54,789 bases of DNA, taken from positions 1-54,789 of IMG/VR virus record IMGVR_UViG_3300044627_002836; one strand, written 5' to 3'. Below the pieces are notes generated by a model. The model did no database searches and was not told the DNA's origin. It saw nothing but the letters and a program-made list of their open reading frames with translations. Shown here piece by piece: positions 38,101-54,789 of this stretch. This stretch comes from a virus. A program made the translations under genes and the position numbers. Positions within the stretch are counted from its first letter, which is position 1. Each line of letters opens with the position of its first letter.

Positions 38101-41100
38101 GTTACTTAAAACTTACCAAAGAAAAAATAGGAGCTGTTTCTAAAGAGCAGATTCAAGAATTCCGTCAAAGACGTTCTCTTTATCATTTATCTAATGCTCA
38201 GGTTATAGATCGTATAGCAGAAGAATATTTAGCTGATAAATTTAAAGCATATAAGTTAGAAGGTCGTGGTGCTCAGGAAGGTTGGCTAAATAAGCTAATG
38301 AACTTAATAGATAGTATCATTCGTTTTTTTAACAAAAATTATAAAGAAATAGATAACCTGTTTCAAAGAATTGATACAGGATTCTATAAGAATGCAAAGA
38401 TTGTAGGTGAGTTTAAGGAAGGTGCGTTTGAAATGCTATCTACCCGTAGTACACTAGTAACAGGTCCTACAGGAAAAGCTATACAAAGAAAGAACTTTCT
38501 TAATAAAATTGACCAAGCACAGTTGATAAATAGACTAGCTGAACTAACTTCTTTTTCAGTAGGTAAAAACTTTGAAGAAAAGTTTGCAGGAGCTCGTAAA
38601 GAGCTAATAGCAGAAATGAACATAGATAACCTAATTGCTCAAAATCCTTCTGAAGAATTAGCTATTCGTACACGTTATGAATCCATTCTTCAGGATAAAC
38701 TTTATACTCTAGGTGTACCTGTATCTATGATTAATGAAACAGGTAATGTTACTATGGATCAGAACTTAAATTTAATACAAAAGGATCCTGTACAGCTAGC
38801 AGCTTATAATAAGCAGCAAGCTGATACATTAAAGTCTTTAAAGCAACAAGTTAGTCAAAAGATAAACAACATTTCTATATCAAACATATACTTTGATCCC
38901 GACGCTATGCTGAATGAAGAAGAGTTTGATGAAGATGATCTAGGTGATGAAACAAATTATGAAGATAGCTTTGTAAACATAAATACTTTGGACGGCTTGA
39001 GCCGTCAGTTTCGTTCATTTTTTGGTCTAATTTCTTATATTCATACAGACGATCTGGGAGTACAAACCACCCGTATGGTAGATGGAGCTACAGTTTTTGA
39101 TACCATGATGAAAATCTTAGCTGACACACCTGTAGAAAAGATGATGTCTCGTATGGAAGAAACTCTAGAAAAAATGCTAGAGTCTGATAACATGGTAGCA
39201 TATGATCGTCTTAATGCAGTGTGGGATAAGATGAAAAAATACTTTGGTCTTAATGAAAATAATCAACCTACACGTAATACAAATCTTTATAATCAGTTTA
39301 TTGATGTATTTAATGTAGCAGATCTATCTACAGATGTATACTATGTAAACACTCGTAATGATTCTTCTAGTCTTAGAGTTATTGATGCCACTATACAAAA
39401 TGATATTAATCAGTATTATGAAAAGTTAAGAAGAAAGTATGAGAATGGTTTTATGAAAAAGTCTACCAAAGATCGTGAAGATATTCTTCGTGTATCCAAA
39501 GCTATTCTTAAAACTGAAGTGACTGTACCAACAGACCTTGGTAGTCAAAGTTATAATTCAATAAAAGCTAAAGCAAAAAAAGTACACAAGGCTCTTAATG
39601 ATATAGGTATTATATTACCTCTGCATACCGTTATTTACTCTTTAATTGCAATTGATGTAAAAGAAAATAAAGTAGAGTTAAAACCTAAAAGTAAATCTTT
39701 AAAGCAATACATATTAGATCAAGAACTTATTAATACAGGAGCTTATCTTGATAAAGATTTTTTTGATAAAATTGTTAGATATGTAGATGAAAATACAAAT
39801 ATTTTTGATAAGTCTGTAGATAAAGATGTTGCTACAGAAGGAACTCTTGGTCTTACTGACTTAGAAAAGAATCAGCTTCGTTTAAAGAAAAGAGGACTGG
39901 GTTTAATTAATTCTGTACTAAAAAAGACAGGACGTTATGTTGTTAAGTATGATCTTGATACTGTAGTGTCTGTATTTCGTAATGCAGAAGGTAAAAATGT
40001 TTATCGTTATGTACGTAAAAGTCCACCATTATTAATAGCACAGTCATTGAGAGAAAAAGGATGGCAAGATACTTATTCTGATTTTTCAACTGTTGCTAAG
40101 TTCTTACAAGACAACCCACTTACAGCTAATAAGCCTGAAAATTTGCTCTACTTACAAAACATTGAGCTTAGAAGTTTTGGTGGAGCTCGTCAAACACTTA
40201 AAGGTGTAGAACGAGATGGTGTTACAGCTAAGACTATTGATACAGCAGGTTACTATCTAAGCTATGTCCTGATGTCTATGAACCGTAAAACAACTATAAA
40301 TAATAACGCTGCTATTACAACTTTTTCTAGGATGCTTACTCAAAATGAAGCTTCTAATACTATATATATGATACCAAATCTATATAAAAGAATGGTAACA
40401 AATAATGGATATATAGTTGAAAATAAAGAAAATATAGTGGTTAAAGGTTTTGTAGACGTTATCAAACAAGAATACCAGCGTATACAAAGAGAATGGACTA
40501 CACGTAAAGATCAGAATAAAGAAAAATTTAATAATTATAATGCTGTTTTAAATCCTGATGGATCTGTAAACACAGAAGATCCATCTTTGCGTGCGTACAA
40601 CTTTAATATGCTTGCTGATTTTTTTGAGTTTAATAATCTTGCATCTAAAACATCTAATCCACTACGTGCTGATATCCGCAATCAACTTATACAAAGTGCA
40701 AAAGATGGAATAAAGTTTGATAAGCTTGATATTGGTTTACTGCAGCGTGAACTTCTTAATTATGCAGAAGAAAAGTTTACTGCTCATTTAAACATACTAA
40801 AGTCTTACAAACTAGTTGAAGAAAATGAACAGACTAGTGAACTTATGAGCCGTCTTATTCCTGATAGTTACACCGTTGATGGTACAACTGTAAGTATTGA
40901 ATCAGAGGATTCTAATCTAGAGTCTTATCTAAAAGATGTCTATTTTAACGTATTTATAAACAACTTGCAGGTGTCACAGTTTTTTGATGGTGATATAGCA
41001 ATGGGTGTTAAAAACTTTGCTGACTACTTTAAGCGTCAGAAAATGAACGTTGCTGCTGGACCTTCTATGAAGAGTGGTAATCATACTGTAGCATATGTAG

Positions 41101-44100
41101 ATGAAATTACTGTTCTTATTAATGATAACAATCTTGAAGAAGGGCAGTATGACGAGAATGATGAAATGCCTGAAGGATTTATAAATCGTTCACAAAAAGT
41201 CAAAAGTTTTGATGGTCAGTCTGTTACAACAATAGAACATCGTATTGAACAATATCGTAAACAGGGAAGACTTGTTGATAATGCAGAAGAGCAAAAATCT
41301 GTAGAAGAGATTCTTAAAGCTAGCCGTTACAGTAAACTTACTGAAGAAGAAGTAGACTTCTTGAGAAGTAACAAGGTAGTGCTTGGACCAAAGAAAACAG
41401 TAACGGGTGCTTTAGTATACTATCATAAACAAGCAGAACACGTTTTGTTTCGTACAGATAGTTCTTATATGGTTGTACCAGATGGAATGACGCGTGCTCA
41501 GGTTGAAAAAAGACTAGCAGAATTATATAATCAAACTGACATTCTCCGGTCCAAGCTTCGTAATGCAGATACATATGATATCACAGCAGAGGGAGGTGTG
41601 CAATTTATAGAAGATCAGCTTCGTGATGTTTACTCTCAAATCCATAGATATTGGGAACCATTACCAAATCGTGCTGCTCATCACTATATGCTTAATTCTA
41701 TGGAATTTAATGATATTGACCAGCTTATGGATCTCACTTCTTCTAAAAAAGCTACATTACTTCCTACAAAAGTTAACAGTGGTGCTATTACTGATCTCAG
41801 TAAATCTAAACTTTTAGTACCAAATATTTATAAGTTTGATCAGGTAGAAACTTCTAAAGTTTCTACAGATATTAGTTCTACTACACAGCTTCAACATCTG
41901 ATAGATACAGATATTAATCTTGATGATAAAGAAGTTGACTCTAATTTAAAAGATGCTATTCTGCAATATCGTAAGTTAACTGGTAGACTATCTCAAGTAG
42001 GTCTTGACAGACTAAATAACATCATTAAAGATGAAAATGGTAATGTAGAAGTACGTGAGATTATCCGTAGTATGAGAGATGGTCTTGAAACTCAGGGAGC
42101 TGATAGTAACACTTTAAAGTTCTTTGAGATAAGAGATGATCAGCCTGTACACAACATTAATCTTCCTTTGTTGAAGAAGATGTTTACTTATTACTACTTT
42201 GCTTTTTATTCTAATAATGTATTTAGTAAACGTCAAAGTGGTAGAAAAGATTATATAGTTACTAGCTGGGGATATAAACTTATTGAAAATCGTACTACTG
42301 GTGAAGTTATTAAAAGTGATGAGATTGCAAAAAATCCACAAAAGTATAATGACACTTCTAAATATAAGCTTCGCTACCCTGGTGTAAAGTATGATAAAGT
42401 TAACAACCGTTACATTGTAGAAGTTATGGTTCCTCGTCCGTATTTTAAGAACCAGGAAGAGATTGAACTTTTTGAACGTAAACTTAGTGAGTTTTTATCT
42501 ACACGTATTCCAACAGAAGATAAACGTTCTATGATTGTAGCTAAAGTTGTAGATTTTATTGATGGAGCTTACCAAAATACTATTGTTATACCACAGCTTA
42601 TTCACGTACTTTCAGGTTCTGACCTTGACATTGACTCTTTATATTCTCATACGTTTGCTACTTATGAAGACTTTAACGGTAAGCAAAAAGTATATGGTGA
42701 GGCAAACACTCCTAAAGAACAGTTTGTAGAATATTTACAAAGTATGATGCAAGATGAAACACTAGCCTCACTTATAAAAGTAGAATTAGATAAAGTGTAT
42801 AAAGAAAAAATCACTGATGTTCCTGAATCTTTACAAGATTTAGCAGAAGATTTAAATTTACCTTTTTACAATTACACTAAAGAACAGTGGATGGCTGCTT
42901 TAGATGAACTCAGAATACAACGTAACAATATATATGAGCAGGTGCAGTCTACAAAAGAAAAGCGTAAGCAGACTCAAGAGATTTATGAAAAAGTAAAAGC
43001 TGAAAATGAACAAATGGTTCAGCAAATTACTGATAGTCTCAAAGCTTTTTTAAAAGAGCAAGACATAAAAACTACTCCAGATAAATTTGCTGAATTACTT
43101 TGGGAACAGACAGCTATAATGAAATCTAATTTCCGTGAGCAGGGTGATCTTCGTGTTTCTTTAGAAAAAATGAATAGCCGTATTAAAGATAGTTATGAAA
43201 ATATAGCTACAGCTAATAAAAGAATTACTAATTCATCTAATGAATTACAACGTATTAGTAGATTGATGAAAGTTTTAGCCACTTTGAACATACTTGCTCG
43301 AAAAAATATGCCTATTACAGCAAAACAGTATGCTAAAGAAGTTTCTAAAAAAGGATCACTTGTTCCTGAAACATTGCAAAATGATCTACTTCAGGTCAAG
43401 ATAGATATACTTAGTAATCCTTATACATTTAAAAAATTATATATACAAGAACGTTCTGATATATCTAGGTTTGAAAATATAGCAGTGGCTATGAAAAAAA
43501 GTATTAAAGATGTTATTAATAAAAATAATATTTTTTCACCAGATGGTATCATTGGATCTCGTGATATGGTTAAAAGTTCTGGTGCAGGTATTGGTATAGC
43601 AGCTAACGTTAATAAGTTTGCAGCTTTTGCTTCTAAGAAAGGCTTGAAGCTAAGTAATCCTATATGGAATGTTAACGGTAAAAACTATTCAGACTTTACA
43701 GCTGATAGTGAAAACCGGCCGATATCAGACATTGGTAATGCATTAGGTATGCAGGCAGATGCTAAAAGTAATCCTATTCCTGCTGTACTTAATCTTAATG
43801 AAGTTAGTTTACCTATCACACTAGTTATGATTGCACAAAAGCTTCCTTTAGAGATGGCTATTACAATCAATTCTGTACCACTTATATATAAAGTGATACA
43901 ACGTGTTATGGAAGAAAAACGTGAAATACGTACAATAGCAGATTTGTTTAACAAACGTAGTCTTACAAGCATTGCTCGTGATGAGATGAGTGAGGCCATT
44001 GAAAAACTTAAAGAAGATGGTTTGCAGGCAGAGCTTTTTGAAGTAGATGATGAACAAAACATTATCTATGATATGGCTGGTAATCCTAAATTTAAAACTG

Positions 44101-46676
44101 ATTTGTTTTTAGATTATGACTTTAATTATACTCCCACAGATAGATCTTCCGCTGAAGACTTTGGTTTTAAACTTAACAACAAACTGGGTATTCCATTGTC
44201 AGATGATTCTACACAAGTTTATTTGCTGCATAAATATATTCAGACAAGTAATCTAAACAATGATGTATTTGCTTTAGGTTCTATCTTAAACTTGTATAAA
44301 AAACTTAAACCAAGTTGGAAGTCTGTAGACCGGACATTAAAGAATTATGCTTATCTAACTGGTGTACTTACAGAGAAGAGTCAGTTTGCTAATATTGAGG
44401 AGATTCTAAAAAACTCTCCAGAGTTTAAACCTTTAATACAAGGTTTAAAAGAACTTTCTGAAAATGCTGAAGTTATTCTTATAGAGCGTCATCCTGTAAT
44501 GAAAGCTATTGATGATACTATTAAAGGAGGTTTACAAGCATTTAATTTAGATGAACAAGTAGAACAAAGAATCACGGATCAAATTACTAAATACTTTATT
44601 ATTAACAAGTTTCGTCAGCAAACAGAAACAGAGCTTAATGAAGAATTACTTAAACCTACTCCTAATCTTCTTGTTGTACAGTCACTTAAAACTGCTCTTG
44701 AAATGTTTAATGCTGATTTTTGGAAAGGAGAACCTACAAATGCAGATGTTACTTCTATAGAGCAGGACTTTCAATATCTTAAAGATAATCATGAGGGTAA
44801 TCCTTTTGTAGACTATTTAAAAGAGCGTACACGTCAAGGAATAAGTTTTATTGAAGCTCTTAGTAGAATGAAACTTGAAAAGGAGTATGCAGAAAATGTT
44901 AATGATGGATTTTTACTATTGCAGAATTCACCTGATACTCGTAGTAAACTTATAGCTCGTAAACTATTTCACTATACACTTGTAAAAGATGGACTAGGGT
45001 ATGGTTCAAATACTTTTATCAATTATATAAACCCGCAGGATCCACAAACATTTGAGAAAATATCCAAGTATTTGAATGAGTTTCAAACAACTTTGGTTGA
45101 GTTTAACAAGAAGAATCGTGTTCTTATACAAAAAGGTAAAGCAGAAAGTTATTACAAAAAGTTCAATGATTTGCTTAATGACTTCTTTGGTAAGAAAGCT
45201 GATTTGAATGTATACATGAGTTCTATCATTAACCGTATAGGACTTTACGCTGGCAACAATGACATTATGGTTAAGAGTCGTATGGCACTTATCAAAAGTA
45301 AGAAAAGCCGATTTGCAGGTATAGAGCCTGCGTTGATAATGGAAGAGATGAAATACTTACTTCCTGATACACATGCTCTCACTCCTAAAGATGTTTATAC
45401 AGAGCTGGAAGAGAATCCAGAGAATATTGAGTTTTGGTTGCCTACTTCTAAAGAAACTGGTATAGGTAAACTTGTAATAGATACCGCTAAAACCTATTCT
45501 AATATTTCTAATATTATTCTTTCTCAAATGAATGTTCGCCAGGGTGCACAATTTAATGGCGATGATGGTAAAACTCAGACTTATGTGTTTCCACTGTTTG
45601 TAAAGAATAACTTTGGTCAAATACTACGTTTAACAGAAGTGGATGGTGCACGCCTTAGTGAGAAAGTTATTAACAATCTTACTTCAAAACTTCAGGGAAA
45701 ATCTTATAATGACAGTGTATCTGGTGTTCGTGCTACTTATATAGTGGCTGAACAAGAAGGTACTGATAGTATTCTTAATCTTGGATTTAGTGAGCAAGAA
45801 GCTCGTGAACTTTACAAGTTTGCACAGGAAGATAACGACAATCAATTTTTGGATATAAGTATTACTGCTAAATTTGATCAAGTACTTCAAAAACTACGTA
45901 ATGTTTATAAGGTAGAGCCCAAACGTCTTAATTTATTAGCTCGTATTGTTAAGAGTGAAGTGATGAATAGTGCTGCCATTACATTTGAAAAGCAAAAGAA
46001 TAATTTGTTTTATATTGACTACACAGTAGATACAAAAGATCGTGGTCCTGTACAACGTAAACTTTATCTTCGTCCAAGTGTTACTGATCCTTTAAGTATT
46101 ACTATAGAAATGAGGGAACGTGAAATAGTAACTGGAATAGAAACTTTGGTACAGCTTGAAGATAATATGCGTGAGTTTCCTGCAGTAGAGATTGAATTTG
46201 TAAAACGTGGTAAGCAATTCCGTGGACCTAGGGTTACAAAGCCAGCTAATCCTATCACTAAAGAAATGGTAGCTGAAGTGGTAAAAAATTATCAAGTTCC
46301 ACAAGATAGAAAGCTTAAAACAAAATTAACATTTACTATATTTGCAGATACTCAGTGGAATCTTCTAAAAGAAAATCTTAATCTAGATAAACTTGTTCAG
46401 ATATTTAATGATGTACATACTATTTCAGTAAATCAACAAGCTCCTATACAAGAATCTTCTAGTGCTTTTTCTTCATTTACTATTCCAGCTGGTTTTGTAT
46501 TACGTCCTAATGCTCCTGATATAAAAGCTTATATTTCTCAAATGCGTAAAGTTAGTGATAAGAGTGAAACTGAGCTTATAGAAATGTATAAGAAGATTAA
46601 TCTTATTGCTACTTCTACTAGAGATATAAATGATGTAAGAAAGGATAAAGATTCTGGTGATTGTATTATTTTATAA
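35172..46676 (+). CDS. Giant virion RNA polymerase polyprotein with zincin motif (3834 aa)
   Basis: A 3834-residue protein. Residues ~2340-2900 carry the core of crAss-like/YonO-type single-chain RNA polymerases: RIPTEDKRSMIVAKVVDF leads into SGSD2484-L-D2486-I-D2488-S, the metal-binding DxDxD loop of the second double-psi barrel, and GAGIGIAANVNKF lies at 2804-2816. Known relatives such as gp66 of phage phi14:2 are injected and transcribe early genes. Separately, H959-EAF-H963 followed by DRIAEEYLADKF (E1017/E1018) forms a zincin-type peptidase site, as in phage polyvalent proteins. The C-terminal ~900 residues are unassigned. The length exceeds the usual ~2200 residues, so other cargo modules appear fused to the polymerase. 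It uses TAA and overlaps only the untenable TTG extension of the next gene. Confidence 0.8.
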   Translation: MNKCSISIQIFANFTKQLLAQDAKYKNFAEVATFIIKRPGQPDSVKMVALKGLAKIYDQLAKKDQTFSFSADDSKIIDVDLEKDDLETQFKNIAANYQVRPSAPLSIDTIKNDIKNLSSLPVLQLQDAVTKIVKDIAALAKTNFRKSADDMVKIIGELYDRAITELDKNTAVSPIIRNSLTQLLNTEKNIATEAASDYIPLKNTIYGDTKIIVKKDGGIFEVLRDTTGKYIDINSSDSSEVIFDRSVGDQLFNLRVDSSPFVGGNDGTQYIFSHNELRNGMTLRDRTGKVITNQLLSFDNPLSALEVVASRTEIQRNQDRISRIRSEIPTRTLETQEVVSQQKALLAGNPVLSVFSPLEGAQIQFRIPGQQGAMILYGIDNYAIIYPDNRTVAVDFSETQKQLILKLARKNTTNENGINVTEPITEEDFYNLKASYEKFKDFKKAVQEILDQNKNQSEIILPQALVTAYINLARTGEAIAVAPSADQQASLTTLLNKEGGPGQISFNVVEALDDNSYSEPRRVTKPIIVAKQGGVWTFISDLKGNEMVAVDRDDRKEYMSFSDYMQNELKISPDINIQKFPSSFAWLYQKPNGKLQPIALKYIPVENSADIARLAMGFGQLLKKMSDPQTEGPKELRNFNLNVFGFSPYNPTGATSFAGDFDVFKDPSGERSVSIQIRPMTMNWSQVPRDVRKALTVYIDVPVMTAFLKVVRIAAEIPAFKSQKNDLNTAAGKNALVKFIDEDPQLRKQLMSAYEDINTHLYRKFQSIGEKLTKTSYNGEFDIPKIYTLMENEKSDLSGRWKLKIKDRQTGNDVTNFNNYRSMTTEEVFTFGGIQAVFAGPNVSAIQTVNKPAPVTQNPANNTTADNVPGTAGTIEIDLNFEDGAFELAMDTELFQAYQAGQFQQELDWIKANLPKEISVEDLADIMDNLKAEGRVLGYFRDRVIYLNEQLSGRGSGYHEAFHGVFRKLMDASTRDRYLKLTKEKIGAVSKEQIQEFRQRRSLYHLSNAQVIDRIAEEYLADKFKAYKLEGRGAQEGWLNKLMNLIDSIIRFFNKNYKEIDNLFQRIDTGFYKNAKIVGEFKEGAFEMLSTRSTLVTGPTGKAIQRKNFLNKIDQAQLINRLAELTSFSVGKNFEEKFAGARKELIAEMNIDNLIAQNPSEELAIRTRYESILQDKLYTLGVPVSMINETGNVTMDQNLNLIQKDPVQLAAYNKQQADTLKSLKQQVSQKINNISISNIYFDPDAMLNEEEFDEDDLGDETNYEDSFVNINTLDGLSRQFRSFFGLISYIHTDDLGVQTTRMVDGATVFDTMMKILADTPVEKMMSRMEETLEKMLESDNMVAYDRLNAVWDKMKKYFGLNENNQPTRNTNLYNQFIDVFNVADLSTDVYYVNTRNDSSSLRVIDATIQNDINQYYEKLRRKYENGFMKKSTKDREDILRVSKAILKTEVTVPTDLGSQSYNSIKAKAKKVHKALNDIGIILPLHTVIYSLIAIDVKENKVELKPKSKSLKQYILDQELINTGAYLDKDFFDKIVRYVDENTNIFDKSVDKDVATEGTLGLTDLEKNQLRLKKRGLGLINSVLKKTGRYVVKYDLDTVVSVFRNAEGKNVYRYVRKSPPLLIAQSLREKGWQDTYSDFSTVAKFLQDNPLTANKPENLLYLQNIELRSFGGARQTLKGVERDGVTAKTIDTAGYYLSYVLMSMNRKTTINNNAAITTFSRMLTQNEASNTIYMIPNLYKRMVTNNGYIVENKENIVVKGFVDVIKQEYQRIQREWTTRKDQNKEKFNNYNAVLNPDGSVNTEDPSLRAYNFNMLADFFEFNNLASKTSNPLRADIRNQLIQSAKDGIKFDKLDIGLLQRELLNYAEEKFTAHLNILKSYKLVEENEQTSELMSRLIPDSYTVDGTTVSIESEDSNLESYLKDVYFNVFINNLQVSQFFDGDIAMGVKNFADYFKRQKMNVAAGPSMKSGNHTVAYVDEITVLINDNNLEEGQYDENDEMPEGFINRSQKVKSFDGQSVTTIEHRIEQYRKQGRLVDNAEEQKSVEEILKASRYSKLTEEEVDFLRSNKVVLGPKKTVTGALVYYHKQAEHVLFRTDSSYMVVPDGMTRAQVEKRLAELYNQTDILRSKLRNADTYDITAEGGVQFIEDQLRDVYSQIHRYWEPLPNRAAHHYMLNSMEFNDIDQLMDLTSSKKATLLPTKVNSGAITDLSKSKLLVPNIYKFDQVETSKVSTDISSTTQLQHLIDTDINLDDKEVDSNLKDAILQYRKLTGRLSQVGLDRLNNIIKDENGNVEVREIIRSMRDGLETQGADSNTLKFFEIRDDQPVHNINLPLLKKMFTYYYFAFYSNNVFSKRQSGRKDYIVTSWGYKLIENRTTGEVIKSDEIAKNPQKYNDTSKYKLRYPGVKYDKVNNRYIVEVMVPRPYFKNQEEIELFERKLSEFLSTRIPTEDKRSMIVAKVVDFIDGAYQNTIVIPQLIHVLSGSDLDIDSLYSHTFATYEDFNGKQKVYGEANTPKEQFVEYLQSMMQDETLASLIKVELDKVYKEKITDVPESLQDLAEDLNLPFYNYTKEQWMAALDELRIQRNNIYEQVQSTKEKRKQTQEIYEKVKAENEQMVQQITDSLKAFLKEQDIKTTPDKFAELLWEQTAIMKSNFREQGDLRVSLEKMNSRIKDSYENIATANKRITNSSNELQRISRLMKVLATLNILARKNMPITAKQYAKEVSKKGSLVPETLQNDLLQVKIDILSNPYTFKKLYIQERSDISRFENIAVAMKKSIKDVINKNNIFSPDGIIGSRDMVKSSGAGIGIAANVNKFAAFASKKGLKLSNPIWNVNGKNYSDFTADSENRPISDIGNALGMQADAKSNPIPAVLNLNEVSLPITLVMIAQKLPLEMAITINSVPLIYKVIQRVMEEKREIRTIADLFNKRSLTSIARDEMSEAIEKLKEDGLQAELFEVDDEQNIIYDMAGNPKFKTDLFLDYDFNYTPTDRSSAEDFGFKLNNKLGIPLSDDSTQVYLLHKYIQTSNLNNDVFALGSILNLYKKLKPSWKSVDRTLKNYAYLTGVLTEKSQFANIEEILKNSPEFKPLIQGLKELSENAEVILIERHPVMKAIDDTIKGGLQAFNLDEQVEQRITDQITKYFIINKFRQQTETELNEELLKPTPNLLVVQSLKTALEMFNADFWKGEPTNADVTSIEQDFQYLKDNHEGNPFVDYLKERTRQGISFIEALSRMKLEKEYAENVNDGFLLLQNSPDTRSKLIARKLFHYTLVKDGLGYGSNTFINYINPQDPQTFEKISKYLNEFQTTLVEFNKKNRVLIQKGKAESYYKKFNDLLNDFFGKKADLNVYMSSIINRIGLYAGNNDIMVKSRMALIKSKKSRFAGIEPALIMEEMKYLLPDTHALTPKDVYTELEENPENIEFWLPTSKETGIGKLVIDTAKTYSNISNIILSQMNVRQGAQFNGDDGKTQTYVFPLFVKNNFGQILRLTEVDGARLSEKVINNLTSKLQGKSYNDSVSGVRATYIVAEQEGTDSILNLGFSEQEARELYKFAQEDNDNQFLDISITAKFDQVLQKLRNVYKVEPKRLNLLARIVKSEVMNSAAITFEKQKNNLFYIDYTVDTKDRGPVQRKLYLRPSVTDPLSITIEMREREIVTGIETLVQLEDNMREFPAVEIEFVKRGKQFRGPRVTKPANPITKEMVAEVVKNYQVPQDRKLKTKLTFTIFADTQWNLLKENLNLDKLVQIFNDVHTISVNQQAPIQESSSAFSSFTIPAGFVLRPNAPDIKAYISQMRKVSDKSETELIEMYKKINLIATSTRDINDVRKDKDSGDCIIL

Positions 46677-46693
46677 ACCTACCAAATATTAAT

Positions 46694-49600
46694 ATGCCCT
46701 GTCAAGTATTTAGAAATTCCAAACGTGAAATTGTTAAAGTGGTTGCACCTAATGGACAACCTTCCAAGTTATATAAAGACATTCTTGCTCGTCCTGAAAT
46801 TGAGGGTAATAAAGAAGCTGCTCTTGATGTATGGTTGTCTGCCTATACAGACGACTTTAAAAAGAAGTATGGTGACTGGGAGAATACTACAACGTCTACT
46901 ACTGTTAATCAGTCATCCATAGTGGTAGATCAAAACGGAGAACCTTTAGCAAAGTATGTACTTCCTAATGCAACTTATAATCTTTCTGAAATTGCTGAGC
47001 AATTTAATTATCAGCAATCTGAGCTTCAAAGAAACTTTATGTTTACTTCAGGTTTAACTTTAATGAGTCGTGACAAGGCCCAGAGAATAGTAGACTGGGT
47101 CGCTAAGAATAATAAGTATAACTCTATTGAAGTGAATATTCGTGGTGTCAATGACGGTTCTAAAATTATGTATACTGTAAACATATCTGAAAAACCTTTA
47201 AAACAACTTTATGAGCTGCAGTCTCAACAGTTGATTGAGCTTCAAAAATTTCAGATAAATCAAGTAATTAATAGATTAGCTATTAAGTTTCCAAAGCTGC
47301 AGACTAAATGGATTACAGCTGAAGATCTTATGCAGCAAGATCATCCTGTAGATGTATCTACTATACGTGGTTTTGTACGTGACGGTATAATATATCTTGT
47401 AGAAGGTAGAGCTACTGAGTCTATTGCTATAGAAGAAATTTTACATCCTTTTATTGAATCACTTTTTCAAGATAATCGTGCTTTATTTACAGGATTATTT
47501 AACAAAGGAAAAGAGCGTTACCCGGAGTTATGGAAAAAGATCCAAGGAGCATATCTTGAAAGTCGTAGTTTTATTGAGGTTGATCGTAAAAAAGAACTAG
47601 TTACTCGTGTACTTCAGCAAGTATTACAGGAAGATATAAGTAATCCTGAGAAATCTTTTCAGGAACTAAAATCTCTTTTACAAAGATTCTTTAATTGGCT
47701 TAGTGAATTAATGCAGGAGGTTTTTGATATCCGTACGGATGGCAATATTATGATACAGGCTTACAACCTTCCTACTAAGATTAGTTACGAAGAGCTGTCT
47801 GATATCATTAACACTAAAAATGTACAGCTTTCTACAGCTGTTGCAGATGCCAACTCTTATAACACAGACGGTGAAATGGACAACCAGGAATTAAACAATT
47901 CCAAGGACCGTAAACTTGCCCGTGTTGAAGAGCAAATGGACATCGTGCGTAGTGTAATTACAGACCTGAAAAAGGCTAAAGGAACTGACGCTAAGATTGC
48001 CACACTTGAAAAAGTGTTGATCAACCTTAATAAGTATCGTCAGATTATACAAAATGATGAATACACTGTATCAGTTACCAATCTTACTGGTGGTGGCCAG
48101 ATAGATAACCAGGAGACTTATAATGACTTTAAAGAGTTTGGAACATTTATTCACTTTGTGCTGGAGAATGTACAGAAGATGAGTGTTGAATCTAATAAAA
48201 AAGTGACTACTATTCTTACTCGTGAAATGTTTGACATGCTGGCTGATAACTATCCTGGTGAATTTAATATTGTAAACCTGGACAGAGATCAGATGTATGA
48301 TATGAGCCAGGAGATGATTAGCTATTTGCAATACTATATTACTAGTGGGTACACGCTTCTTCCTGAAATATCAGTAGTTGGTAAGGATCGTAACGACCGT
48401 AACGTAGTAGGACGTGTGGACATCATGGCCATAGCCCCTAGTGGTGCTATAGAAATTGTGGACCTGAAAACCAAGAAAGTGTACACTAATGCACAAATCG
48501 GTTTAATGTTTAATAAACCATATCCTGTTGCTACAACTGAGCAAACAGATACTGCATTTTCTAATACCAGGAGATCTGTATATGACAGTTGGGACACTCA
48601 GCTTGGTATATATGAAAGACTATATGCACAAGAAGGAATTCCGGTAGGTCGTAAAAGTGTACTGGTTTTAGTATACCGTGGTGACATGGTAGACGTTACA
48701 GATATTAATACTCCTGGTCAATTTCAGTTTGAATACTCAGGATATGAATTTTTAAACTACAGCTCAGATCAACGTCAGAATGGAACTGATCTTGAAAAGC
48801 TTAACTATGCAAACACTGATCGTAAAGTTAAACGTGTTATTCCTGTAGCAGGAGAAGTTTTAGAAGATACAAAGACTTCTAAAGAGCCTATTATCTTTAA
48901 CCTTAAAGATGAAGATTACAAACGTCTTTTAGCTAACCTGGAATCTATTGCTGCAGAAGAAATTAAAAAGATTGAAAAGTCTTTATCTGAACTGGATGAA
49001 AACAATGAGAACGATAAAAAGCTCAGGGATTATTATAAAGCACGCCGTGAGTCTATTCGTAAAATACAAGATAGTTTTAAGAAAGAAACTTGGGAACCTG
49101 CGTATAAGCTCACTGCTATTATGCAGTTTATGAGTGACAACACTGCTGCTATGAAGCAGACAGCACAGGACATTGCTAACATTAAAGATCCTGTAGAAAA
49201 AGCCCGTAAGCTGGACGACCTGAAGAACAAGGCTGTAGCCTTTAACTATTTTCTTTCAGACATCCGTGAGTTGTTGATCAATCTTAATGATGAGCGTAAT
49301 GATAAAGCTATCAACCTTCTTGATAATATCCAATCTAATATTGATTACACTATAGGTATATTTAATGAGCTTGGTTTTAATTATCTAGTTGATATACTTA
49401 AAGATTCTATGAGTCCTGAGACTTTGCAAAAACTTAATGCGGAAAGATTTGAGAGTATAGATCCACTAATTACTCATCTTAAAAAGAAATTAGAAAAGCT
49501 TAAAAACCAAAAAGATCAAGGAGGTACTGGTACCACTATATCTTATTCTATTTGGCAGGGTCTATCTAATATCGCCCGCAGTATTGCAAAGGTGCCTATT

Positions 49601-52600
49601 GATACCAAAAATGAAATAGAGGCTTTAGAAGTACGTATTAAATCTTTAGAGCTGCGTAAGCAGGGCATTAACCTGGATGATAAGTCTGTACGTCAATATA
49701 TTCAGGGTATTTTAGATAAAAACTCTTTGTATTATATTGGATCAGATACTACAGTGCTAACTGATTTTATAGCAGCATCATCAAATGCAGATTTAGGTGT
49801 TTCTGGTTTTGCCAATCATTTAAAGTTTATTGAGGTAAGAGCTAAACAACTCTATGTAAACTTTATGGAAAAAAATAAATTTCAGAGTCTTTATGATAAA
49901 TTCCGTAAAGGAAAAATGGACATTGATAAAATTAATGCTCCTATATCAGAGATTAGAGAAGTTACTGAATATAATGCAGAAGGTCAACCTGTACTTAAAA
50001 GATTTCGTTCTTTTGTTGATCCTGTTACTGAAGAGTATAAAAATGTATTTAAAAAGTACTGGAATGACATGAGAATGCTAAATAAGCAGATTCGTGAAAC
50101 TGGTGACGTAGATCAGAAAAAAGAACTTGCTCGTCAAAAAGCTGCTTTAGTACAGGCACAAAAAACATGGAGACTTGAAAACTCCCAGATGCCATACGTA
50201 GACGAGATCTATGAATTGGATAAGTTTTTGCCTGAAGAATTTAAGCAAAAAAGAGATGAGCTGTATGAAGAGCGTGAAGCTATAATGGCACAAGTAGGAC
50301 TTAATGAAGAAGAGAAACTTTCTGAGGAAGACCTGGAAAGTCTTGCTGAAATAGAAATTCAGCTTAAAAAACTTAAGCAGGAAACCATTGAAAAAAACTC
50401 TTCTTACCAGGAGTATTTAGATAAGATGGAAAAATACTACAGCTATGAACCTAATGTATTTTTCTTTGAGCGTATTAAAAGTTCCAAACAGATTGAGTAT
50501 GCAGATGACCCGGTAGCTTTTAAAAAGTGGATGGAGCTGAATACATACAAAACACCCAAGCAGGAATATTATGATACCCTTGCTGATCTGTATGATTCTT
50601 TATACAACTTACTTCCTAAGAATGAAGTTATCCAAGAGCTCAGAGAAAAACAGCGTTCTTTACTTAGAGCTTATAAACGTAATGGTTATGTTGATACACG
50701 TTTCTTATCGGCTGAAGACATTAAGCTTTATGAAGAAATAGAACAGCAGCTTTCAGAAATCCGTGAAGGCAGTGGAAGTATTATGGCAGGTCTTGGCAAA
50801 GAAGACAAAGATGCTGTACGTGAGATTTTTGATGAACTTAACTCTATAACTGCAATATTTGTTAATCCTTATTATGATAGGGACTATTCTGCAAGAATGG
50901 AGGCGTTAGATCAAAAACTTTTTATATATAATGAAGCTAAACGTAAAAGTGAAGTGGCTACAGGTATAGATAAAATGCAGTTAGAGCGTGAAACTGTGCA
51001 AGCTCTTGAAAACTTTTATGAAGAAGAAAAAGAGTTTGAGACATGGTATAATATAAATCATGATAATGTATATGAGTCTAAGTTGTTAGGTAAATCTTTA
51101 AATCCTGTTGCTAAAGCATTTAACTTTGTAAGGCTTCCAAGTGATCCTAATATGATGGAGGTAAAACCTTCACCAAAGTATAGTATCCGTAAGTTAAAAG
51201 AGGAAGCATTTAATAAGAACTACCAGGAAACAGTAGACGGGTTTCCAATGCCGCGTGGTATGAAATCTGTAGATGGTGTAGTAAAAATAGACAAGACATC
51301 TAAGTGGGTTAACTCCCGTTACGAGCAGCTCACTAAAGAAACAGATAACTTTGATTTCTATACAAAGTTTGTTGGTCAATTTATTAAGATGCAAGACGAG
51401 ACTTATGGTCGTAACCTAGGGTACTTCTTTCCTGGTTTTGAAGAGACTTCCCTGCAGATCTATAAAGACAAAGGTTTTACAGAAGGTTTTAAAAAGAACT
51501 TTGAGATCTTCAAACAGAAGAACTTCTCTGCCAGCAGTATATTTGATTACTCTGTTAATGAGATAGCTACTGGTAATGATACCATGGTAAGGATGAAGTT
51601 TAATCGTCCTATCAATCTTAATGAAGCACAAGCTACTGTAGATGGTATTGGCTCTGTGATTAGATGGTATGAAGAAGCATTTATTAATCAAGCTGTAGGA
51701 GAAGCTCAGCCTTTGGTAAGTTCTACGCTTTCTTATCTAAATAATCTTTATAAACAGCTTGACCAGTCTAATATTGCTGATAAAGAAGTTCGTAAAACTA
51801 ATTTAAAAAGAGTAATAGACTCTTACACTTTTGAATATGAAAAAATAATTAAAGGTGAAACCAAGCTTAATCAGGGAAATATGAGTAAGTTAGGTGATAC
51901 TTTATTAAAAACAATTGGTTTTACCCGTCTTGGTTTTGACCTGGCTAACCAGGTTGGTAACTACTTTTCAGGAAATGTTCAGACATTCCTGGGTGGTCAC
52001 AAAACAGGACAGTATAACAATAAGAACCTGGCTGTAGCTAAAAAACAATTCTATGGTTCAGATGGTTTGATGGCGTCATTACTGAGGGATTCTAATAAGA
52101 TGTCAGGGTTTACCCACATGACCAAGATGTATCTTTTTTTTAATCCTGCTCAAGCTGATCTTAAAAATACATATGACAAAACTCGTTCTACTAGTCAGCG
52201 TATTGGTCAAGGAGCTATGGACTTACAACCTGCTTTTTGGATACAAGATAAAGGAGAAATAGAAATATCTTCTACTATATGGCTTGCTATGATGGATAAC
52301 CGCAGGGTTAAACTGGTAGCTGAGCGTAATGCAGATGGTACTATTAAGACCTACCAGACTGAAGCTGATGGTACTGTAAAAACTATTTCTGCTTTTGAAG
52401 CATATGTTTCTAATGCTGAAGGAGAGATTGTTATACGTGATGATGTTGACTGGACAAAGAATGATGAAAAAAGTATTATGAGTGCTATATATTCTGAAAT
52501 ACGTAGAACTCAGGGTAACTATGCATCAGCAGATAAGACCAGAGCAGAACGTGGTATTCTTGGAAGGTTCTTGGTATTCTATCGTAAGTACTTAATGCCT

Positions 52601-53242
52601 TTTGTACTAAACCGTTTTGGTGCTAGAAGAGATAGTGCTGAATCTGGTGAGGTGGCAATGGGTTATTATAATGCTTTAATACGTGGTTTATACTACTATC
52701 GTTGGAAGCTTTTTGCAGGTATGATTGGTAAAGATGATTCTGTCTCTCCATTCTATGCAAAAAAAGCTTATTATGCTGTAAGAGAAATAGTAATGGCTTC
52801 TATGTTATATATTCTTGGTACTTTTTTACAAAGTATGGTAAAACGTATGGATGATGATGATGATGATAAAATAGCCAAGAATATTGCTTATCAACTCTTG
52901 GCTATTTATATCAAAACTGAGCGTGAAACTCGTTCAATGGTACCAGTTCCTGTTATTGGTTCTATAGATGAATATATTAATCAATTTACTTCTTTTACTA
53001 ACTTTGGTAGAGACATCACTCGTGTAATTAAACTTACTGAGCATGGTCTTGCTTTAGGTGGAGCACAAGTTTTTGATTCTGAAATGATAGATAGAGCTGC
53101 TTACTACCAAAGAAAGACAGGTATATTTGATAAAGGAGATGCTAAAATTATGAAAGATATTTATGACGTTTCAGGTTTTATGAACTTTTATGAACTTTAT
53201 AATCCTGAAGTGAGAGTAGAAGATGCTTTCAAAAGAAGATGA
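46694..53242 (+). CDS. Giant cargo protein with RecB-like nuclease domain (2182 aa)
   Basis: A 2182-residue protein from ATG 46694, chosen over a TTG at 46661 inside the upstream gene. The start MPCQVFRNSKREIVKVVAPNG with FKKKYGDWEN is the opening of crAss-like giant virion proteins. Residues ~235-300 resemble a zincin region, but the first His is replaced (E247-EIL-H251-P). Residues ~480-660 show RecB-family PD-(D/E)xK motifs: H487 (GTFIHFVLE), D576 (GRVDIMA), D590-L-K592 and Q636-LGI-Y640. The middle is long coiled coil. The C-terminus has a hydrophobic helix (VMASMLYILGTFLQSM, ~2032-2049), six Asp (2053-2058) and further helices. It is probably carried in the head and injected. Confidence 0.7.
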   Translation: MPCQVFRNSKREIVKVVAPNGQPSKLYKDILARPEIEGNKEAALDVWLSAYTDDFKKKYGDWENTTTSTTVNQSSIVVDQNGEPLAKYVLPNATYNLSEIAEQFNYQQSELQRNFMFTSGLTLMSRDKAQRIVDWVAKNNKYNSIEVNIRGVNDGSKIMYTVNISEKPLKQLYELQSQQLIELQKFQINQVINRLAIKFPKLQTKWITAEDLMQQDHPVDVSTIRGFVRDGIIYLVEGRATESIAIEEILHPFIESLFQDNRALFTGLFNKGKERYPELWKKIQGAYLESRSFIEVDRKKELVTRVLQQVLQEDISNPEKSFQELKSLLQRFFNWLSELMQEVFDIRTDGNIMIQAYNLPTKISYEELSDIINTKNVQLSTAVADANSYNTDGEMDNQELNNSKDRKLARVEEQMDIVRSVITDLKKAKGTDAKIATLEKVLINLNKYRQIIQNDEYTVSVTNLTGGGQIDNQETYNDFKEFGTFIHFVLENVQKMSVESNKKVTTILTREMFDMLADNYPGEFNIVNLDRDQMYDMSQEMISYLQYYITSGYTLLPEISVVGKDRNDRNVVGRVDIMAIAPSGAIEIVDLKTKKVYTNAQIGLMFNKPYPVATTEQTDTAFSNTRRSVYDSWDTQLGIYERLYAQEGIPVGRKSVLVLVYRGDMVDVTDINTPGQFQFEYSGYEFLNYSSDQRQNGTDLEKLNYANTDRKVKRVIPVAGEVLEDTKTSKEPIIFNLKDEDYKRLLANLESIAAEEIKKIEKSLSELDENNENDKKLRDYYKARRESIRKIQDSFKKETWEPAYKLTAIMQFMSDNTAAMKQTAQDIANIKDPVEKARKLDDLKNKAVAFNYFLSDIRELLINLNDERNDKAINLLDNIQSNIDYTIGIFNELGFNYLVDILKDSMSPETLQKLNAERFESIDPLITHLKKKLEKLKNQKDQGGTGTTISYSIWQGLSNIARSIAKVPIDTKNEIEALEVRIKSLELRKQGINLDDKSVRQYIQGILDKNSLYYIGSDTTVLTDFIAASSNADLGVSGFANHLKFIEVRAKQLYVNFMEKNKFQSLYDKFRKGKMDIDKINAPISEIREVTEYNAEGQPVLKRFRSFVDPVTEEYKNVFKKYWNDMRMLNKQIRETGDVDQKKELARQKAALVQAQKTWRLENSQMPYVDEIYELDKFLPEEFKQKRDELYEEREAIMAQVGLNEEEKLSEEDLESLAEIEIQLKKLKQETIEKNSSYQEYLDKMEKYYSYEPNVFFFERIKSSKQIEYADDPVAFKKWMELNTYKTPKQEYYDTLADLYDSLYNLLPKNEVIQELREKQRSLLRAYKRNGYVDTRFLSAEDIKLYEEIEQQLSEIREGSGSIMAGLGKEDKDAVREIFDELNSITAIFVNPYYDRDYSARMEALDQKLFIYNEAKRKSEVATGIDKMQLERETVQALENFYEEEKEFETWYNINHDNVYESKLLGKSLNPVAKAFNFVRLPSDPNMMEVKPSPKYSIRKLKEEAFNKNYQETVDGFPMPRGMKSVDGVVKIDKTSKWVNSRYEQLTKETDNFDFYTKFVGQFIKMQDETYGRNLGYFFPGFEETSLQIYKDKGFTEGFKKNFEIFKQKNFSASSIFDYSVNEIATGNDTMVRMKFNRPINLNEAQATVDGIGSVIRWYEEAFINQAVGEAQPLVSSTLSYLNNLYKQLDQSNIADKEVRKTNLKRVIDSYTFEYEKIIKGETKLNQGNMSKLGDTLLKTIGFTRLGFDLANQVGNYFSGNVQTFLGGHKTGQYNNKNLAVAKKQFYGSDGLMASLLRDSNKMSGFTHMTKMYLFFNPAQADLKNTYDKTRSTSQRIGQGAMDLQPAFWIQDKGEIEISSTIWLAMMDNRRVKLVAERNADGTIKTYQTEADGTVKTISAFEAYVSNAEGEIVIRDDVDWTKNDEKSIMSAIYSEIRRTQGNYASADKTRAERGILGRFLVFYRKYLMPFVLNRFGARRDSAESGEVAMGYYNALIRGLYYYRWKLFAGMIGKDDSVSPFYAKKAYYAVREIVMASMLYILGTFLQSMVKRMDDDDDDKIAKNIAYQLLAIYIKTERETRSMVPVPVIGSIDEYINQFTSFTNFGRDITRVIKLTEHGLALGGAQVFDSEMIDRAAYYQRKTGIFDKGDAKIMKDIYDVSGFMNFYELYNPEVRVEDAFKRR

Positions 53243-53243
53243 T

Positions 53244-53275
53244 AAAAAAAGGGGGGGTTAACTATTCCCTTTTTT
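53244..53275. terminator. Bidirectional terminator between convergent operons
   Basis: A run of seven A and seven G (53244-53257) pairs through AAAAAAGGG with CCCTTTTTT (53267-53275). T runs follow in both directions, so it can stop the plus-strand cargo operon and the minus-strand module. It overlaps the last codons of the 61-aa minus-strand gene. Confidence 0.8.
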
Positions 53276-53443
53276 ATTTAATATTGTTATACTAAATAAC
53301 AATATTCCTATACCAACTTCTATGTCTACACCATCATAATATTTTTCTGTAGATGTTTCAAACGTTTGAATAACATTAACATTAATACCAATAAGTATTT
53401 GGTATTTAGGTAGAAATTTTAAACGGATATCCTGTATTCCCAT
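53258..53443 (-). CDS. Small protein with hydrophobic C-terminal strand/helix (61 aa)
   Basis: A 61-residue protein on the minus strand, starting two bases after the cREC stop and so probably co-transcribed. It is beta-rich: KYQILIGINVNVIQTFE, then YYDGVDIEVGIGILLFSITIL. The last 20 residues are hydrophobic enough for a membrane anchor, but the alternation fits strands equally well. Its stop lies in the bidirectional terminator. I do not recognise the family. The convergent orientation suggests an expression time different from the late genes. Confidence 0.6.
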   Translation of the reverse strand: MGIQDIRLKFLPKYQILIGINVNVIQTFETSTEKYYDGVDIEVGIGILLFSITILNKKGNS

Positions 53444-53445
53444 AT

Positions 53446-53901
53446 TTAATTTTTATTAGTTTCTATTATAAATGGATGACGGCCGAGATAGCAATCTTGC
53501 TCCCATCCCATGTGTTTTTTAAGACCGTTAATATAACTTTGTATGTTGGTAGCTCCCACTGGATTGTGTGAATGTACACATACAGAGTTTAACATTGCAT
53601 TATTCTTTTGTACATATTCTCCTAACCACTGAGCACAATCAAGCCCTGTTTTTTCTTTATAGCTTTCATAATCAGGAATTTGATATCCTTGTGCAGTTGT
53701 TTGATTTATATAGTCTGTCATGTGTTCGTTTGCAAGATCATGATCAAAACTAATAAGATCTGGAATACCATTCTTACTAATCCAATCAACAAACTCTTTA
53801 TAGTTTCTCACTACTACCCATTCTTCATATCCTGGAATGGTCGTTGTTGGTGTACGGCAGTCATCTAAGTAAAGACTCCTTCGGAGTTTTTGTACTTCCA
53901 T
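53446..53901 (-). CDS. Cyclic-phosphate processing receiver (cREC) domain protein (151 aa)
   Basis: A 151-residue protein matching the cREC family (receiver-like domain linked to 2',3'-cyclic phosphate RNA ends). LYLDD (D13, D14) with R16-T-P, then GIPDLISFDHDL (D53, H54, D55), TGLDCAQWL, and VHSHNP with H110 and H112. Known families of this type occur in phages beside RNA repair or nuclease genes, so a role in trimming or sealing RNA ends is plausible but unproved. The first 12 codons overlap the end of the homing endonuclease gene in another frame, and codons for KLRRSL form a perfect small hairpin. A truncated second copy of the 5' end lies beyond the endonuclease gene. Confidence 0.82.
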   Translation of the reverse strand: MEVQKLRRSLYLDDCRTPTTTIPGYEEWVVVRNYKEFVDWISKNGIPDLISFDHDLANEHMTDYINQTTAQGYQIPDYESYKEKTGLDCAQWLGEYVQKNNAMLNSVCVHSHNPVGATNIQSYINGLKKHMGWEQDCYLGRHPFIIETNKN

Positions 53902-54665
53902 ATGTGGTTTTTATAGGGTTTATTACTTTTTAAAACAAGTGTCATGTATGAGTTTGACACGTTGAACTCTCTTGCTATTTCTGTTATAGAAGACCATTCT
54001 TTTACAATTATTCCTGCTAGATCATATTGTATAATGTTTTTAGTAGGATGCTTGCGTTGTTTAGGTTTAGGTATTTTAAAAGACTCTATGTTGCTTTTTA
54101 AGCACCAGTAGTACCCACCAGTACGTTGCATAGTTCCATTTAAACACATGCTTATACCAGGACTATGAACACCTGTGGCTTTTACAGCTTCTTGTAAAGA
54201 AGAATAGGTTTTTATTATTTTACCTGTAGAGTCTATTTGACACACTGGTTTGCTTTGTGTAGCAGATATTTTAGTCTGAGTTTCAGGACTGCGTTTGTGA
54301 CCTATGTGAGCTAAACTCAACTTTTTTCTTGTTTGCTCACTAGCTTTTATACCTAAGTTCGTACTAGCTTGAAGTCTTTTATTGTATCCGATTTTACTAG
54401 TATTTACAGAACACAGGTCAATCCAGTATTGCTCAGCTTTCATTAACAGTTCTTTAGGTACACTTTCTATTATTTCAAACATAAAATTGTTTTCACCGTA
54501 CTTATTCCAAGCAGCTTGAAGATGTGTGTTAAAGTGTTGATTTTGAGAAAGCAGTCTACGGTGTTGTCTAAAACGGGCATGTATACTGACAGCACTACCT
54601 ATATAAAACTTGTTGTTTGCTTTGTTTACAATACGGTATACTCCAGGTATGGGTTTATAGGGCAC
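53865..54665 (-). CDS. GIY-YIG homing endonuclease with NUMOD modules (266 aa)
   Basis: A 266-residue protein. G8-V-Y10 and Y21-I-G23 form the GIY-YIG signature, followed by Arg/His (R31-FRQH) and the catalytic Glu in KAEQYW (E78). Residues ~109-135 (SEQTRKKLSLAHIGHKRSPE) are a NUMOD3 DNA-binding motif. Residues ~140-185 and ~210-262 are NUMOD1-like helix-turn-helix units (IIKTYSSLQEAVKATGV; IVKEWSSITEIAREFNVS). This is the standard design of free-standing phage homing endonucleases, which cut a specific site and spread by repair. Its 3' end overlaps the cREC start by 37 bases, and its upstream side abuts a broken copy of the cREC 5' end, so it seems to have inserted in that gene. Confidence 0.88.
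   Translation of the reverse strand: MPYKPIPGVYRIVNKANNKFYIGSAVSIHARFRQHRRLLSQNQHFNTHLQAAWNKYGENNFMFEIIESVPKELLMKAEQYWIDLCSVNTSKIGYNKRLQASTNLGIKASEQTRKKLSLAHIGHKRSPETQTKISATQSKPVCQIDSTGKIIKTYSSLQEAVKATGVHSPGISMCLNGTMQRTGGYYWCLKSNIESFKIPKPKQRKHPTKNIIQYDLAGIIVKEWSSITEIAREFNVSNSYMTLVLKSNKPYKNHIWKYKNSEGVFT
53871..53891. repeat. Nine-pair hairpin at the cREC 5' end
   Basis: AAAGACTCC (53871-53879) pairs with GGAGTTTTT (53883-53891) around TTC, with one G-T pair on the plus strand. On the plus strand it resembles a terminator. On the minus strand it lies in the first codons of the cREC gene, at the endonuclease/cREC junction, and could reduce translation or mark the insertion joint. Confidence 0.55.
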
Positions 54666-54676
54666 GGAAAAAGGGT

Positions 54677-54772
54677 TTAGTACAATACTAAGATACTAAA
54701 ATATTTAATTTTTTCCAAAACAATATCATCAAGATATAAGCTACGTTTAAGTTGTTTTGTTAGCATGTTCAT
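54677..54772 (-). pseudogene. Truncated 5' end of a cREC gene, separated by the homing endonuclease
   Basis: A 31-codon minus-strand frame begins MNMLTKQLKRSLYLDDI and then runs into unrelated residues and a TAA 11 bases before the endonuclease start codon. QLKRSLYLDD matches the start of the intact cREC protein (KLRRSLYLDD) at the protein level, though the codons differ widely. An in-frame TAA just upstream fixes the start. The most likely reading is a remnant of the original gene start, cut off by endonuclease insertion. A short independent peptide cannot be excluded. Confidence 0.6.
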
Positions 54773-54789
54773 GGGTTATAAGTTCTTTT

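Follow-up and report, generated by a model that had tools for sequence, protein, structure and literature searches.

An 865-bp insert near the end of a 54,789-nt stretch of viral DNA (hereafter the window, meaning the whole stretch that was analysed) is very probably a free-standing homing element, with no recognisable intron or intein, that entered a cREC gene where the LDD motif is encoded and brings a rescue with it. We observed that the insertion is clean, that alleles exist with and without it, that the cREC frame is open, and that near-identical units, replacement sequence included, occur in diverged phages. A preliminary description of this DNA had placed three elements on the minus strand, and all three were found where it put them: a 31-codon ORF (54677..54772), then a GIY-YIG homing endonuclease gene (53865..54665; 266 aa, GTG start), then a cREC ORF at the window's end (53446-53901; 151 aa), which starts within the final 37 bases of the endonuclease ORF. 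The endonuclease has a GIY-YIG domain over residues 8-84 (Pfam PF01541, E = 2.1e-10, 41.2 bits against a cut-off of 22.6) and NUMOD1 over residues 139-175 (Pfam, E = 1.3e-7), and it matches PHROG homing endonuclease families; an I-HmuI NUMOD-like domain at this locus is also above the Pfam cut-off. The cREC product matches Pfam cREC_REC (PF20274) with E = 1.5e-22 (80.5 bits against a cut-off of 27), and the 31-residue peptide has no Pfam match. The flank-duplication score of the window is 47, a value that none of 60 shuffles reached (shuffle mean 23.2; z = 8.7). That the same peptide motif flanks the endonuclease gene in diverged DNA, as previously described, was borne out: LKRSLYLDD and LRRSLYLDD are encoded with 15 of 27 bases identical, and seven of their eight same-amino-acid codons differ where 4.5 would be expected (window alone).

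A cREC protein scan of viral contigs returned 18 relatives, among them L002, the same phage without the endonuclease. Its cREC gene is a single ORF of 153 codons that reads MNMLTKQLKRSLYLDDI and then RTPTTTIPGY. Around the insert, the window and L002 are identical at 68 of 68 bases on the left (54722..54789, minus strand) and 4,407 of 4,408 on the right, and L002 joins these two flanks with no gap and no duplicated bases; the whole shared sequence outside the insert has one difference in 53,924 bases. The insert itself (53857..54721, minus strand) begins GTTTTGG, finishes GATGACTGC, and gave no match when searched against the L002 contig. Its junction lies between L002 cREC codons I17 and R18 (window 54722/54721 on the left, 53857/53856 on the right), and neither edge can be slid by even one base. 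Fixed-site presence and absence in like genomes is therefore met for this pair. Within the left flank are native cREC codons 1-17, MNMLTKQLKRSLYLDDI (54722-54772, minus strand; L002 3995-4045); the 31-codon ORF is a displaced 5′ stub made of these 17 codons followed by 14 codons of insert and a stop. The native body of cREC, from RTPTTTIPGY to the stop (53446..53856, minus strand), is kept. The preliminary description had predicted just such a relative, with a cREC start equal to the upstream copy up to LDDI and a remainder equal to the downstream copy, and L002 fits both parts except for one base. Its claim of entry at the LDD codons is right as to the neighbourhood, but the exact junction is one codon past LDD.

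Outside the insert, the sole base that differs is at 53826 (minus strand), where L002 has A and the window has G, changing Lys to Glu; counted from the insert's right edge, it is the 31st base. Chance would seldom place a lone difference so near the edge (about 31 in 53,924, on that side), and we therefore infer that it is likely a co-conversion mark left by the donor.

The LDD motif on either side of the endonuclease could also be taken to mean that two adjacent cREC genes once stood here, one of which decayed to a stub, with the endonuclease landing between them, and one related contig (L127) does carry a second cREC copy (771-1172) about 0.8 kb upstream of its endonuclease. For the window this is refuted by L002, in which one gene occupies the site with no bases missing or duplicated. 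Moreover, an [YF][LI]DD motif 60-330 nt upstream of cREC was found in 0 of 75 distinct endonuclease-free contigs (three others were too short and were skipped), and we regard an origin from two genes as practically untenable. Either two separate cREC-like genes in relatives, or the 31-codon peptide as an independent conserved gene, would have overturned the preliminary description; neither is the case, the former because L002 has a single cREC gene at this place and the latter because the last 14 codons of the peptide are insert.

Comparison with L002 further shows that the final 45 bp of the insert (MEVQKLRRSLYLDDC; 53857..53901, minus strand) encode 15 codons, M-E-V-Q-K-L-R-R-S-L-Y-L-D-D-C, that substitute for the 17 native codons. 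The last two bases of the new cREC start codon (53899..53901, minus strand) are the first two of an endonuclease Trp codon (TGG, 53898-53900) in the C-terminal sequence HIWKYK. Since the ATG shares these two bases, the first residues of the new cREC are read from the last codons of the endonuclease in another frame.

The window had been taken as a single case, and it instead belongs to a family. Among 98 cREC loci (83 distinct contigs), five had a related endonuclease directly upstream and a second LDD-type motif beyond it; one of the scans behind this sample kept 80 of 566 relatives. A separate scan kept 80 of 83, and all scans were made with short peptide patterns. An alignment of four cREC-linked endonucleases scanned against viral contigs gave 65 loci. 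The clade was reached only through cREC relatives and then through its own endonuclease alignment: peptides of the window endonuclease itself found no relatives in viral contigs, the alignment found none among genome contigs, and the exact DNA of the replacement segment had no match in viral contigs. The contigs of relatives with this architecture come from metagenomes. In the 28 closest loci (L112-L139, on 28 contigs) cREC lies just 3′ of the endonuclease, and the remaining 37 gave no cREC match at E ≤ 1e-3 in the locus DNA examined. A displaced stub was found in 26 of the 28, 25 of them by motif and L136 by MNLFLD only, and the stub ends about one codon past LDD in 25 of 28. No stub was found in L137, the L138 contig begins inside the endonuclease, and the L121 stub has no in-frame ATG after the last stop. 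As a control, we looked for [YF][LI]DD at most 230 nt upstream of the endonuclease: it was present in 25 of 27 clade loci (L138 dropped) and in none of 37 other GIY-YIG loci; among background tiles, 4 of 136 had it.

The cREC frame is open in all 28 clade contigs (135-164 codons; in L138 it is listed from an ATT, with its ATG one codon later), and all 28 have LDD or IDD in frame after the endonuclease. In 21 of 28, the end of the endonuclease gene supplies an ATGG as the cREC start; its TGG is in the open frame of the endonuclease in 19 of these and in a frameshifted remainder in the other two (L115 and L116). In L130-L133, L136, L137 and L138 the start lies beyond the endonuclease frame. The cREC frame is still whole in L112, L113 and L115, whose endonucleases are shortened or frameshifted. 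Flank-duplication scores of several members are weak and no better than shuffles (L130, z = 0.5; L119, z = 1.0; L121, z = 1.4), because the shared motif is short; the stub in these members rests on position and, for L130, also on empty relatives. Two higher scores of the same test were not counted, those of L170 (z = 7.8), which was read as a zinc-finger-like stretch, and L137 (z = 5.6), which was read as a repeat of the endonuclease's own. Further empty relatives are L071 and L093 for L115/L116, L105 and L106 for L130, and L057 and L062 for L113. L071 is 94% identical on both sides of the L115/L116 insert, and L115/L116 are about 90-94% like L071 and L093 near the site, so that presence and absence at a fixed site is met here too.

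The recurrence of this arrangement bears on whether the window is an assembly chimera in which an endonuclease fragment of another phage was joined to the contig. The window contig terminates 68 bp to the left of the insert and there are no read data, which leaves room for such an artefact. However, both edges of the insert map to a single position in the empty allele, without any bases in common between the edges, and the same arrangement is seen in 26 of the 28 closest other contigs; we give a chimera very little credence.

A self-splicing group I intron with an endonuclease gene, whose splicing would restore the native cREC, would also account for a clean insertion: exact excision would give back the L002 frame, and a T ends the left exon. 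Nevertheless, Rfam group I and II intron families gave no match up to E = 5 over 52400-54789. Group I introns end in G, whereas the last base of the insert is C and the edge cannot be slid to another position; neither a ribozyme core nor a 3′ terminal G, the criteria for a mobile group I intron, is met. Splicing also needs no in-frame LDD replacement, yet LDD or IDD follows the endonuclease in frame in every clade contig (28 of 28). We consider an intron very improbable.

The preliminary description had called the replacement recoded. We compared sixteen stub/replacement pairs, omitting near-identical copies (L114, L116, L118, L123, L126, L129, L131-L133 and L139) and incomplete ones (L136-L138); L124, L125 and L128 were all included and share nearly one element. 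Between stub and replacement, 51 of 95 same-amino-acid codons differ, where independent codon choice would predict 47.2 (P = 0.24). Hence, stub and replacement are as different as protein function allows at random, and not more. The claim stands insofar as DNA similarity is at the level of independent codon choice, but there is no excess of codon differences, and selected avoidance of cutting is thus not shown. A simple rule based on the Leu codon of LDD was dropped: this codon differs in 14 of 16 pairs, which is unremarkable since six Leu codons exist. A base consensus of 89 empty sites likewise gave no clear distinction. The L115 stub differs from L071 in nine bases before GATGAC, and the left edge of the L115 insert too may carry a short converted tract.

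Comparison of related elements in different phages shows independently that the replacement is part of the mobile unit. In L124 and L128, which are different phages, the element including the replacement is identical at 832 of 835 positions, a span that runs from just past the stub to just before the LDD of the replacement. The left flanks of the same two contigs match at 79 of 98 positions, cREC from the LDD of the replacement matches at 334 of 393 before the first gap and at 364 of 450 in a gapped alignment to the stop, and the flanks overall are about 81-85% identical. Identity thus breaks at the two LDD sites, which indicates that endonuclease and replacement travel together. In L124 and L125 the element is identical at 834 of 835 positions, with 718 of 809 (ungapped) on the left and 430 of 456 on the right; the left value is a low estimate since its far part is out of register. 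Two other pairs have 787 of 836 in the element against 303 of 435 in cREC (L120/L122), and 788 of 834 against 252 of 387 (L127/L134). The replacement is shown to move with the endonuclease.

An ordinary gene-splitting insertion, which would make the downstream ORF a remnant in decay whose start arose by chance, remains to be weighed. There are no expression data to set against it, and endonucleases that split phage genes are known, as recounted in the available portions of PMC2988022. However, an aspartate pair of cREC, D15 and D16, is invariant in the 12 relatives aligned, and in the 28 clade contigs the replacement restores this pair, in the same frame as an ATG. The movement of the replacement with the endonuclease and the survival of the cREC frame in L112, L113 and L115 also speak against a remnant, as does the AlphaFold2 model of the window cREC (made with 23 cREC sequences), which has a mean pLDDT of 92.5. 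We conclude that a decaying remnant is quite improbable. In the model, residues 1-10 average a pLDDT of 80, the last three residues are below 50, and the LDD, residues 12-14, is at the end of the first strand.

In the 23 aligned cREC sequences, D13, D14 and D53 of the window protein are invariant. The accessible parts of PMC7824862 posit, without showing it, that cREC processes cyclic phosphates at RNA ends or cADPR by means of catalytic aspartates. No Foldseek match to the cREC model reached E = 0.001; receiver domains head the ranking (7qz2, E = 9.7e-3, and also 3h5i), with unrelated folds such as thiamin pyrophosphokinase ranking just below them. The invariance of D13 and D14 suggests that the element strikes codons that its target can hardly change, an inference from conservation. 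In ten cREC pairs tried, dN was lower than dS, with dS saturated in three; this is weak evidence for purifying selection on the repaired cREC, because the divergence largely predates recent insertions. Separately, in L015 (4001-5107) an HNH endonuclease with NUMOD4 and NUMOD1 is inserted in frame inside cREC, after residue ~99, and the two are read as one continuous frame (368 codons in L015); no intron match was found at this locus. The same arrangement is present in L016 and L017 (L015-L017 are contigs of L088-L090). cREC is thus struck at a second site by another type of endonuclease.

We propose that the endonuclease would cut the uninterrupted cREC allele near LDD-x-R; cleavage is inferred here, as there are no cleavage data. 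Repair templated by the occupied genome, homing by break repair that is likewise an inference, would then copy in the entire unit and sever the native first codons, which would remain as a surplus stub. From its final bases, the unit would give cREC a new start (M...LYLDDx), with its ATG overlapping the Trp codon at the endonuclease end, and the repaired cREC would probably be translated by coupling to termination of endonuclease translation; in the absence of expression data, both this coupling and the activity of the repaired cREC are inferred. Because the replacement DNA differs from the stub, the unit would have no usable flanking direct repeat and would probably not be recut, a resistance that is also inferred.

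To our knowledge, free-standing homing genes are found next to other genes, inside introns or inteins, or within genes that they split. We recognised no description of a phage element that replaces a 5′ end in the literature searched, which mostly excluded subscription journals. The closest precedent is the fungal mitochondrial mobile ORF, of which the phage element is a 5′ counterpart. According to the portions available of two reports (PMC3630166, PMC4019555), such ORFs replace gene 3′ ends with diverged copies, in Allomyces atp6, in Glomus atp6, atp9, cox2 and nad3, and in Phlebia cox2. As far as those portions describe them, they share with the phage element an endonuclease ORF in a gene, accompanied by a diverged copy of whichever gene end it displaces, a hybrid gene in frame, and a native end left beyond the ORF. 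They differ in that they are mitochondrial and replace the 3′ end, whereas the phage element replaces the 5′ end and does not meet their C-terminal criterion; the phage element also has its new start codon inside the endonuclease gene.

Gene-splitting endonucleases include mobE in nrdA of Aeh1, mobA between T4 genes 39 and 60, and a seg gene in gene 43 of phage 25, and the split-gene products are separate polypeptides that reassemble (PMC2988022, PMC3014915, PMC5009743, each available in part). As in those cases, a free-standing homing endonuclease lies within a conserved phage gene with no intron. In contrast to them, the cREC element restores one full-length frame by means of its replacement, and the stub is surplus; the mobE/mobA criterion of complementary partial polypeptides without duplication is not met, as there is a duplicated segment and a full-length downstream ORF. 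The window endonuclease resembles I-TevI and seg-type GIY-YIG endonucleases in having a GIY-YIG catalytic domain and NUMOD1, but unlike them its element carries a piece of its target gene. HomeR drives, in what is available of PMC7968924, consist of a nuclease cassette in the target gene with a re-coded rescue that uses the native promoter, and they share with the cREC element the insertion of a nuclease in the target gene with a rescue copy. As described there, HomeR is synthetic, CRISPR-based and placed at the 3′ end of an insect gene, whereas the cREC element is natural, has a GIY-YIG endonuclease, acts at the 5′ end and resides in phage. The resemblance is an analogy, not kinship.

We applied a both-sides peptide test to 114 GIY-YIG loci outside the cREC clade (three were skipped, and some contigs occur twice: L164 and L165 are contigs of L177 and L178). 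Eleven loci had z ≥ 4. One of these, L225 (z = 17.4), is an artefact in which the ‘endonuclease’ is only 30 nt, leaving 10 loci on 8 contigs; tests at a few other loci mean little, since the ORFs are of 57-252 nt. In an SF2-type helicase gene (L200; ResIII and Helicase_C), MITKDDVQDIAISKTDDHRRCTIVLGT precedes the endonuclease and MIREDVQREALSLTDDHRRCTIVLAT follows it, the latter just ahead of the Walker A loop. A DHFR gene with an endonuclease (L181, 1919-2815) again has its new ATG within a Trp codon at the endonuclease end. Whereas the cREC copies are diverged, the copies on either side of this endonuclease have 30 identical bases in a row, indicating that divergence of the copies is not always needed; judged by this run, L181 is perhaps a young insertion. 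The same anatomy is present in a PD-(D/E)XK exonuclease gene (L178, L180 and L177). L216-L218 present a mirror image, in which the endonuclease ORF ends with a repeat of the upstream gene's C-terminus (endonuclease 1995-2633 in L216): the upstream gene finishes FGSGFADSILRPKEKRTA and the endonuclease ORF finishes FGGGFAESILRPKPKHTA, as if the 3′ end of the gene had been replaced.

We lean towards the view that natural home-and-rescue is a common lifestyle of phage GIY-YIG homing genes, with each lineage specialised and the rescue outlasting the endonuclease. On this reading, each lineage would target one gene, at codons close to its start that encode a conserved motif: the LDD of cREC, the first motif of DHFR, the stretch just ahead of the Walker A loop of a helicase, or a CPxxFxY-like motif of a PD-(D/E)XK exonuclease. 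The replacement 5′ end would be read from, or just past, the last codons of the endonuclease. Host gene and parasite would then overlap, such that neither could simply be deleted. If this is true, the endonuclease decays, the rescue remains, and the start of the target gene is permanently re-written. The cREC element of the window would hit conserved-motif codons where the target cannot easily mutate away, and itself supplies the replacement start. It would thereby meet two problems of engineered rescue drives, that of keeping the target functional (which is inferred) and that of not losing the insert by recombination with the native copy. The near-isogenic pair formed by the window and L002, together with the near-identical elements in diverged phages, makes homing, co-conversion and cut-site resistance directly testable. 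For annotation, a gene start can be parasite-supplied, and a displaced original start can show up as a short ORF 5′ of a homing gene.

In 12 annotated phage records (L026, L027, L028, L030 and L257-L264) we found no clear flanking duplication; the best was L258 (z = 3.4; 1 of 100 shuffles as high). One of these records, crAssphage cr56_1 (L028, 1453-2271), has an annotated homing endonuclease with two table-11 stops that overlaps both neighbouring genes; the stops may reflect stop-codon reassignment in that record. Two further loci are similar by eye and were not counted. In L019 (850-2792) the last codons of a GIY-YIG endonuclease overlap the start of a dATP/dGTP diphosphohydrolase gene and a weak stub-like peptide lies upstream; its score is not significant (z = 0.1), and a scan for empty relatives of the gene returned its own contig only. 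In L039 (1380-2575) an endonuclease lies inside a dNMP kinase gene with REFLQ on either side (z = 2.2). Elsewhere in the window there are two giant ORFs, one of 3,834 aa (35172-46676) with no Pfam match and one of 2,193 aa (46661-53242) with a weak PD-(D/E)XK nuclease match; a 1,080-aa piece of the window's last large ORF has one weak match among annotated phages.
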